From an uncultured Verrucomicrobiota bacterium (lineage in GTDB: Bacteria > Verrucomicrobiota > Verrucomicrobiia > Limisphaerales > UBA9464), in NCBI GenBank assembly GCA_903907925.1, contig CAIVQB010000019.1, positions 1 through 37,754 on the forward strand: a DNA stretch of 37,754 nucleotides, read 5' to 3'. The translations under genes and the position numbers were made by a program. The notes under the pieces were generated by a model that worked only from the letters and a program-made list of their open reading frames with translations, did no database searches and was not told where the DNA came from. Position 1 is the stretch's first letter, and each line of letters begins with the position of its first letter. Shown piece by piece: positions 16,405-17,789 of the stretch.

Positions 16405-16438
16405 CGACAAAAAGAAACCGCCCGACACGCGGGCGGTT
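16405..16438 (-). terminator. Rho-independent terminator of the Fe-S carrier gene
   Basis: AACCGCCCG (16416-16424) and CGGGCGGTT (16430-16438) form a perfect 9-bp stem with a 5-nt loop. On the minus strand the stem is followed by TCTTTTTG, a T-run. It lies 33 bases after the stop of the gene at 16472-16825 and separates it from mgtE. Confidence 0.85.
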
Positions 16439-16471: not shown

Positions 16472-16825
16472 TCAGGCGTTGAAGGACTTGCCGCAGCCGC
16501 AGGAGCTGTGGGCGTTCGGATTGTTGATCTTGAAGCCGCCGCCGGTCAGGGCGTCGCTGAAATCGATGACCGCACCGCGGAGATAGTTGGCGCTGAACGG
16601 ATCCACCACCACGCCGACGCCACCGAATTCGACATGCAGATCGTCGTCGCGCTTCTCGTCGAAGGTCATGCCGTACTGCAATCCGGAGCAACCGCCCGAT
16701 TCCACGTACACGCGGAGCGGTTTGCCGGCGTTTTCAGCGTCCTCGGCCAGCATGCTGGTGATCTGCCGGGCGGCGGACTCGGTGAGGGTGACAACGGAAT
16801 CGGTGGATTGGGCGACAGCACTCAT
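16472..16825 (-). CDS. A-type iron-sulfur carrier protein (IscA/ErpA/SufA family)
   Basis: This 117-residue HesB-like protein has the three conserved cysteines: C46 in ESGGCSGLQYGM and C109/C111 in SSCGCGKSF. The central VDPFSANYLRGAVIDF is typical of the family. It delivers iron-sulfur clusters to apo-proteins. A clear terminator follows on the minus strand. The DsrE-like trio ends 91 bases upstream on the same strand, so both units deal with sulfur chemistry. Which A-type subgroup it belongs to needs a tree. Confidence 0.92.
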   Translation of the reverse strand: MSAVAQSTDSVVTLTESAARQITSMLAEDAENAGKPLRVYVESGGCSGLQYGMTFDEKRDDDLHVEFGGVGVVVDPFSANYLRGAVIDFSDALTGGGFKINNPNAHSSCGCGKSFNA

Positions 16826-16916: not shown

Positions 16917-17096
16917 CTACCAGGTGGCCACCGAATCGGCCGCGAACACCCGCTCCACCAAGCGGGCGTAGTCGGGAGTGTCGAGCGTCAGGTCGATCAC
17001 CTCGACGTTCTGTTCGGCGTGGCTTTCCTGGGAGAGCATCAGGGATCGGACCCAGTCGTCGGAGGGACGGGTCAACACGTGGAGGAGCGTGGTCAT
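16917..17096 (-). CDS. 59-residue protein, TusB/DsrH-like by position
   Basis: ATG 17096 to TAG 16917 gives a 59-residue product starting MTTLLHVLTRPSDDW and ending in ...DSVATW. It starts 5 bases after the stop of the preceding small DsrE-fold gene. Predicted content is a short beta strand (LLHVL), a helix (DWVRSLMLSQ), a second strand (VEVIDLTL) and a helix (YARLVERVFA). Third codon positions are strongly G/C, as in the neighbours, so it is probably translated. Its place as the third small gene of a DsrE-like set and the terminal tryptophan suggest a TusB/DsrH-like role; sequence similarity alone does not prove that. Confidence 0.6.
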   Translation of the reverse strand: MTTLLHVLTRPSDDWVRSLMLSQESHAEQNVEVIDLTLDTPDYARLVERVFAADSVATW

Positions 17097-17101
17097 GAAT
17101 G

Positions 17102-17452
17102 TCAGAAGCGCATCACGTGGCGTGCGGCCGCGGCTCGACGGGCCAGTTCACCGTCGTCGATCGGCTCAAACCGGATCGGCGACTCCCCCAGATCGGACAA
17201 TTCGGGAGCGTCCTTTTGGACCAGCACGGGCCAGCCCGATTCGGTCACCAGCGGGAGGTACCGGCTGAAATTGTCCTCGTCTTTCAGATCATCGACCCAT
17301 TCGCCGAGCCCGAGAATGGCCGGGCCACGGAGATAGAGCGTGACGTCCACCTTCTTCCAAATGCCGACTCCGGCGGCAATCCGGATCGCTTCGGCGGGCC
17401 GGCCGCTGGTGCGGGGATCGCTGTCCACGATGATGAGAATTCCGGGGTTCAT
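17102..17452 (-). CDS. DsrE/DsrF-like (TusC-like) small protein
   Basis: This 116-residue protein has the DsrE-like alpha/beta fold pattern: a first strand GILIIVDSDP, a helix PAEAIRIAAGVG, a second strand VDVTLYLRGPAIL, and a helix-strand unit ending in GWPVLVQKDAPELSDL. It has no cysteine, as expected for the non-catalytic TusC/DsrF-type partner. It lies 7 bases after the DsrE-like gene and 5 bases before the 59-residue gene, so all three are surely co-transcribed. The assignment is by fold pattern and gene order. Confidence 0.7.
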   Translation of the reverse strand: MNPGILIIVDSDPRTSGRPAEAIRIAAGVGIWKKVDVTLYLRGPAILGLGEWVDDLKDEDNFSRYLPLVTESGWPVLVQKDAPELSDLGESPIRFEPIDDGELARRAAAARHVMRF

Positions 17453-17459
17453 GATGGGT

Positions 17460-17789
17460 TCATTGAAAGCTGATGAACCGGTCGGTTCCCGCCACCAGGT
17501 CGCTGACCACCGTCAATCCGCCGAAGGTCGCCCGATCGTCCAGTGGCACGCCCCGGCGATGCGCTCCGTAAGCGCAACCGTAGAGTTTCAAGCCGAGTGG
17601 ACGGAGTTGCTGCAGCTCGGGATGGCCGACCCCGGGCACGGCGTCGTCGATGCAATAAAGATAGACGTCGCAGCCTGCAGCCAGCGCGGCCGCGGCGAAG
17701 CGGACCCCGTGTAGAAATGGAGGTAAATCCGGGGATCCCGAAAGCAGCACCCCGAGTTTTTTGCCGGCCAACGTCACGCCGTTAGGCAT
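17460..17789 (-). CDS. DsrE family protein (TusD-like) with conserved cysteine
   Basis: This 109-residue protein from ATG 17789 has the pattern KKLGVLLSGSPDLPPF, helix HGVRFAAAALAAGC, strand DVYLYCIDDAV, then LKLYGCAYGAHRRGV. Here C72 stands where TusD/DsrE carries its sulfur-accepting cysteine. The end, GLTVVSDLVAGTDRFISF, is the usual last helix and strand. The frame remains open far upstream, but that is antisense to the DUF4912 gene. In sulfur-relay systems the D subunit carries persulfide sulfur, and its C and B partners form the complex; the two downstream genes fit those slots. Confidence 0.8.
   Translation of the reverse strand: MPNGVTLAGKKLGVLLSGSPDLPPFLHGVRFAAAALAAGCDVYLYCIDDAVPGVGHPELQQLRPLGLKLYGCAYGAHRRGVPLDDRATFGGLTVVSDLVAGTDRFISFQ

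Follow-up and report, generated by a model that had tools for sequence, protein, structure and literature searches.

A putative DsrEFH/TusDCB-type gene trio with a half-size third gene in an uncultured Verrucomicrobiota bacterium

The gene trio and its surroundings

The window, which is the whole stretch of 37,754 nucleotides analysed in this study, derives from an uncultured Verrucomicrobiota bacterium and carries three small adjacent genes on one strand (Table 1). The open reading frames confirmed the compact arrangement given in the preliminary description, with gaps of 7 bases between genes 1 and 2 and of 5 bases between genes 2 and 3. The ATG chosen as the start of gene 1 sits within a longer open reading frame that opens with TTG. 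The protein of gene 1 contains Cys72, and the proteins of genes 2 and 3 in the window contain no cysteine. In annotation, genes 2 and 3 had no Pfam match over the cut-off, and gene 1 fell slightly under it.

Table 1. Positions of the trio and of the adjoining features in the window
Feature	Position	Strand	Basis
Gene 1, DsrE/TusD-like, 109 aa	17460..17789	(-)	ORF list; ATG at 17789
Gene 2, DsrF/TusC-like by predicted fold, 116 aa	17102..17452	(-)	ORF list, predicted model
Gene 3, probable miniature DsrH/TusB-like, 59 aa	16917..17096	(-)	ORF list, conservation, predicted model
ErpA-like Fe-S carrier	16472..16825	(-)	NCBIfam PRK13623 match
Terminator-like hairpin and T tract, 3' of erpA	16416..16438	(-)	9 pairs, 7 G-C

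The ErpA-like protein, whose gene begins 91 bases past gene 3, scored 121.4 bits against PRK13623 (cut-off 117). A scan of the window found no terminator-like site on the trio strand between gene 3 and erpA; the scanned stretch held two terminator-like sites, against 1.6 expected by shuffling. An MgtE-type transporter gene lies beyond the hairpin on the same strand as the trio, and a frame of 672 aa with a sub-threshold DUF4912 match runs divergently from gene 1.

Conservation of the three genes

Profiles of gene 2 and gene 1 were positive in 88 and 89 of 145 genomes, respectively, with the genome of the window counted in both cases, and the gene 1 set included all 88 gene-2-positive genomes. 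Loci were gathered in one scan of genome contigs with two gene 2 peptide patterns, and 80 relatives, the best of 88, were kept, so that the set is biased towards close relatives. The labels of these 80 loci named Verrucomicrobiota groups, except for L086 (bacterium), L091 (Omnitrophota) and L104 (Bacteroidetes), and we suspect the taxon labels of these three. Of these 80 loci, 79 had gene 1 ahead of gene 2, and in 78 of the 79 the distance was no more than 100 bases. Moreover, a gene 3 of 57-76 codons was present in 77 of the 78 loci of this set that had room for it (the contigs of L108 and L109 stop ahead of gene 3); in L101 no gene 3 was visible despite the room. This tally rose from 69 cases found by tblastn to 73 tabulated after frames had been placed by hand, and to 77 after L060, L085, L088 and L100 had been read by eye, three of which formed the end of a longer frame. 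The tabulated gene 3 proteins measured 57-74 aa and that of L088 measured 76 aa, and the median intergenic gaps across the loci were 7 and 4 bases.

With the 59-aa protein as the query, gene 3 was matched in 77 of the 145 genomes at E <= 0.01, own genome counted. When the window gene was compared with 58 loci of the same length, 1529, 1124 and 2021 differences fell at codon positions 1, 2 and 3, and the single-base codon changes comprised 736 synonymous vs 414 non-synonymous ones. The matches across genomes and the codon-position bias thus show that gene 3 is a genuine conserved gene and not a chance frame. The preliminary description had pointed to this frame as easily missed and had named its conservation in relatives as decisive, and in this respect the frame holds up.

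Several side observations were made on these loci. In L064 (apparently genome G054), genes 2 and 3 stand together behind a frame whose end resembles, by eye, that of a RimO/MiaB-type gene. The gene 1 copy of G054 is on a separate contig, indicating that the cassette is split. A gene 2-like frame without a visible gene 1 or gene 3 alongside was found in six genomes from a different family within the class (L129-L134), four of these genomes being on a single contig; by eye the frame adjoins a polyprenyl-synthetase-like gene. Shine-Dalgarno-like 4-mers were rare 5' of the chosen starts (8/79, 4/80 and 3/73 for genes 1, 2 and 3). Furthermore, genes 1 and 2 had no tblastn match at E <= 0.01 among 72,556 plasmid records, and a scan of viral contigs with gene 1 yielded zero confirmed matches.

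For the comparisons below, alignments were built from the window protein together with 62 of 79 gene 1, 68 of 80 gene 2 and 63 of 73 gene 3 homologues, with near-duplicates and the end-of-contig gene 2 fragments of L108 and L109 omitted by hand.

Relationship to DsrEFH and TusDCB

All 63 aligned gene 1 members, window included, matched the Pfam DsrE family (PF02635) at E <= 0.01. The window protein itself scored 20.5 bits, below the cut-off of 22.7, and its absence at E <= 0.001 from the Pfam DsrE search of the whole translated genome is consistent with this weak score. Cys72 was kept in 63/63 members, which bears out the conservation claimed for it earlier, and Cys46 in 62/63. In hhalign, gene 1 was aligned with four TusD/DsrE sequences over 101 columns (P=6.5e-6 global, probability 67.5%), and Cys72 was placed onto TusD Cys78. 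A default-weight HMM search against 11 references and 3300 shuffled decoys ranked Allochromatium vinosum DsrE first and Klebsiella TusD second, with E. coli TusD scoring under two decoys. Without entropy weighting, A. vinosum DsrE still exceeded every decoy, and 23, 1696 and 74 decoys reached the TusD sequences of E. coli, Klebsiella and Proteus. By these alignments, gene 1 is a DsrE/TusD-like protein with a cysteine at the predicted catalytic position; sulfur is reported to bind at DsrE-Cys78 (PMC3397948).

The predicted model of gene 2 (pLDDT 95.0, pTM 0.89) matched TusC (2d1p_B; Z 13.5, 2.4 A, 111 residues) and DsrF (2hy5_B; Z 12.7, 2.4 A, 111 residues) in the VIA structure search. Its top match was E. 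coli YchN (1JX7; Z 15.8, 2.2 A, 112 residues), a single-gene protein that is not known to belong to a three-gene operon. Five of the ten best rows (Z 11.3-15.8) were titled TusBCD, DsrEFH or DsrE/DsrF-like. The remaining five comprised YchN itself, a designed cage and three functionally uncharacterised proteins; the eleventh row dropped to Z 6.8. In addition, PF02635 was matched at E <= 0.1 by 43 of 69 aligned gene 2 members, the window copy having no match. In hhalign, gene 2 preferred TusC over TusD and TusB (P 8.2e-4 global) at a low probability of 10-13%, and in the profile HMM search the single TusC sequences did not outscore decoys. From this model, gene 2 is predicted, with high confidence, to have the TusC/DsrF fold. 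Together with the PF02635 matches of gene 1, this model upholds the earlier view that genes 1 and 2 are of the DsrE type. The preliminary description had also called gene 2 a cysteine-free partner, which is true of the window copy but is not a family trait: among the best 80 of 88 relatives, 48 homologues contained no cysteine, 26 contained one and 6 contained two.

Gene 3 was predicted to form a strand-helix-strand-helix-strand structure (pLDDT 96.7, pTM 0.80). No curated model recognised the protein, PF04077 (canonical TusB/DsrH) included, and DsrH was absent among the weak and scattered Pfam matches of the 64 aligned members. In hhalign, gene 3 paired best with TusB/DsrH (P 0.02 local, 0.12 global; probability 0.3-2.4%), and in the profile HMM search 272 of 3300 decoys reached A. 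vinosum DsrH and 181 reached E. coli TusB. A post hoc end-anchored test, designed once the DsrH sequence had been seen, gave A. vinosum DsrH 29.0 bits, a score equalled by none of 491 control frames and none of 5000 shuffles. In the same test, TusB scored 12.2 bits for E. coli, 0.3 for Klebsiella and -5.3 for Proteus, the last of which fails, while A. vinosum DsrE reached 12.8 and the TusD sequences 4.1-8.6, so that TusD/DsrE also passed the control frames. DsrH thus appears to stand out in a test that is only partly specific. By structure, Foldseek returned zero matches at E <= 0.001 for the gene 3 model, TusB/DsrH was not among the matches listed by VIA, and the superposition on YchN (residues 1-117 spanned; Z 5.9, 2.0 A, 59/59 residues) was tied with unrelated chains. 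Most likely, gene 3 encodes a miniature TusB/DsrH in which the middle has been removed and both ends resemble A. vinosum DsrH.

Across the three genes, hhalign placed each one best with its own counterpart, ahead of the other two families, strongly only for gene 1; each reference was an alignment of three or four family members. Comparisons by hhalign with single E. coli sequences were too weak to use, and PDB sequence searches with the trio gene profiles returned no DsrE-family chain. With a DsrE-like gene 1, a TusC/DsrF-like gene 2 and a DsrH/TusB-like gene 3, the TusD-TusC-TusB order read from the genes in the preliminary description is supported in miniature, strongly for gene 1 and weakly for gene 3.

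Compared with DsrEFH type I of A. vinosum (PDB 2HY5), the trio likewise consists of three adjacent genes of matching character; gene 1 of the window shares the equivalent of Cys78, at the head of the same C-x(3)-A-x-R-R-G pattern, gene 2 has a DsrF-like predicted fold, and the ends of DsrH are recognisable in gene 3. The differences are that DsrH has 102 aa in the solved chain vs 59 aa for gene 3, from which the middle is gone, that gene 3 of the window lacks cysteine, and that dsrC and dsrA were undetected in the window genome. With E. coli TusDCB (PDB 2D1P), the trio shares the gene order, the position of TusD Cys78 and a TusC-like predicted fold, at a similarity near the detection limit, whereas TusA and TusE were undetected here. 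Furthermore, TusB/DsrH proteins of about 95-100 aa are recognised by PF04077, unlike the protein of gene 3. The known TusDCB and DsrEFH type I complexes are alpha2-beta2-gamma2 heterohexamers.

Sulfur partners, genomic neighbours and possible functions

The genome of the window is 96% complete. It contains MnmA (340.5 bits), and no match to TusA, TusE/DsrC, YeeE/YedE or dsrA was found in it. In control searches TusA was found in 11 of 14 genomes, and DsrC in 1 of 14 (E. coli). PF04077 was over the cut-off in none of 387 genomes of the phylum, own included, and below it in one; only 7 of these 387 genomes have gene 2, so that its absence says little on the close relatives of the trio. The five DsrC-bearing genomes among the 145 hold neither gene 1 nor gene 2. 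By eye, SQR-like and DsrE-like genes stand beside DsrC in L113 and L115, with frames from four of these five genomes. An SQR-TusA-DsrE2 operon is reported for Methylacidiphilum fumariolicum SolV (PMC10205796); it is different from the window trio.

The genes flanking the trio in the best 80 of 88 relatives include no general operon partner, although the neighbour lists are rough because the frame caller often favours long antisense frames. The likeliest of the alternatives, if still an unlikely one, is that the trio delivers sulfur to iron-sulfur cluster assembly with ErpA as its operon partner. A terminator scan covered the window and five of the eight ErpA loci (L031, L032, L062, L050 and L065). 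L031 and L032 resemble the window in having no terminator-like site between gene 3 and erpA and a hairpin after erpA, and erpA is possibly co-transcribed with the trio in the window. Against this, a terminator-like site intervenes in L062, none lies past erpA in L050 and L065, and ErpA follows gene 3 in only 8 of the best 80 of 88 loci. Moreover, ErpA is established as a carrier of clusters, not as an acceptor of sulfur. The preliminary description was right that an iron-sulfur carrier is the next gene on the strand, but the neighbour is weak evidence for a sulfur-trafficking unit. In L050, where ErpA lies past gene 3, a frame upstream of gene 1 (L050:663-947, the same place as in L018) encodes a ThiS/Urm1-like protein with GG at its C-terminus; this is a single place.

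Another explanation, which we regard as improbable, is that the trio belongs to DsrEFH type II (the YTD cluster) and serves dissimilatory sulfur oxidation or disproportionation. Type II was described in 2026 and is the nearest published precedent for the trio (PMC13293266); PMC13293266, PMC13047784 and PMC9751629 were the sources for the cluster. According to them, type II likewise consists of three divergent genes overlooked by sequence annotation, with one conserved catalytic cysteine in DsrE, Cys67, through which sulfur is transferred in vitro (PMC13293266), and with a DsrH-like protein that lacks Cys20 (PMC13047784); gene 3 of the window encodes no cysteine. YeeE was commoner with gene 2, at 17 of 88 gene-2-positive genomes vs 3 of 57 others (20 of 145 in all; raw counts, uncorrected for shared ancestry), and three of the 88 (G054, G115 and G130) matched both TusA and YeeE. 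However, in all 17 genomes the YeeE match lay on other contigs than gene 2, whereas bacterial type II is described as syntenic with yeeE and tusA, with reductive dsrAB in 73.9% of its genomes (PMC13293266). In the window genome yeeE and tusA were undetected, as were dsrC and dsrA (co-occurrence with dsrAB/dsrC being a majority trait of type II and not a universal one), and dsrA, matched in 16 of the 145 genomes, was over the cut-off in none. The stem Verruco is absent from the main text of PMC13293266. The trio may overlap with DsrEFH type II, with which it was compared by published description.

We give the same low credence to a redox- or sulfur-sensing module, in which a stand-alone response regulator would act with the two cysteines of gene 1 as a switch. 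A stand-alone receiver protein was encoded 5' of gene 1 on the same strand, at 9-297 bases, in 12 of the best 80 of 88 loci (L040, L043, L082, L083, L090, L091, L095, L098, L099, L103, L106 and L110), and two of these upstream proteins were checked and matched PF00072. Outside the family of the window, the receiver adjoined gene 1 in 10 of 41 gene-1-positive genomes (G064, G069, G075, G086, G098, G103, G117, G120, G125 and G135), spread over 8 families. This adjacency and the retention of Cys46 favour a sensing role, but none of the 50 genomes in the family of the window matched the receiver at E <= 1e-20, it occurs also in genomes without the trio, and the adjacency may reflect shared regulation only.

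The least credible explanation is a genuine Tus relay in the manner of E. coli, supplying MnmA with sulfur for tRNA 2-thiouridine. The identical gene order and the presence of MnmA speak for it, but TusA and TusE/DsrC were undetected in the genome of the window, TusA was found in none of the 50 genomes of its family (30 of 145 overall, with 10 of the 88 gene-2-positive genomes, 7 of them over the cut-off), and DsrC was found in none of the 88. Of the Tus partners named in the preliminary description, MnmA alone was recovered, and the sulfur relay of the Tus type suggested there is not borne out, the usual donor and acceptor being undetected in the genome.

The reading that we prefer, and hold to be rather probable, is that the trio encodes a putative persulfide-carrying complex of a divergent DsrEFH/TusDCB type with a half-size third subunit. 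The binding of sulfur to DsrE-Cys78 and its transfer through Cys67 of type II, both reported in the papers cited above, speak for this reading. In such a complex, Cys72 of gene 1 would be the site of the persulfide (sulfane sulfur), gene 2 would act as a DsrF/TusC-like scaffold subunit, and gene 3 would be a DsrH/TusB-like subunit cut down to its strand-helix-strand-helix-strand core, the three proteins presumably forming one complex. The donor and the acceptor would be other than TusA and TusE/DsrC. We would guess that the acceptor pathway in the genus of the window is biosynthetic (iron-sulfur clusters or thio-modification) rather than dissimilatory. The trio is DsrEFH-like in the features compared, yet we file it neither under TusDCB nor under type II. 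A literature search that covered few subscription papers found no paper describing it.

A broader proposal, which we put forward tentatively and consider possible rather than probable, is that the trio represents a third DsrEFH-like sulfurtransferase lineage with a half-size DsrH, found so far in Verrucomicrobiota-type genomes. Such a lineage would be able to work in the absence of the Dsr pathway and of TusA, TusE/DsrC and YeeE, and in several families it would be placed under a dedicated response regulator. DsrEFH-type complexes are usually taken as marks of sulfur oxidation or of tRNA thiolation. A conserved trio with the catalytic cysteine, in a genome with no detectable TusA, TusE/DsrC or dsrA, would mean another sulfur route, and a third subunit of about 60% of the length of TusB would allow the role of that subunit to be tested. 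If the third lineage is real, it would have a sulfur donor and acceptor yet to be discovered and would reveal a minimal DsrEFH core.
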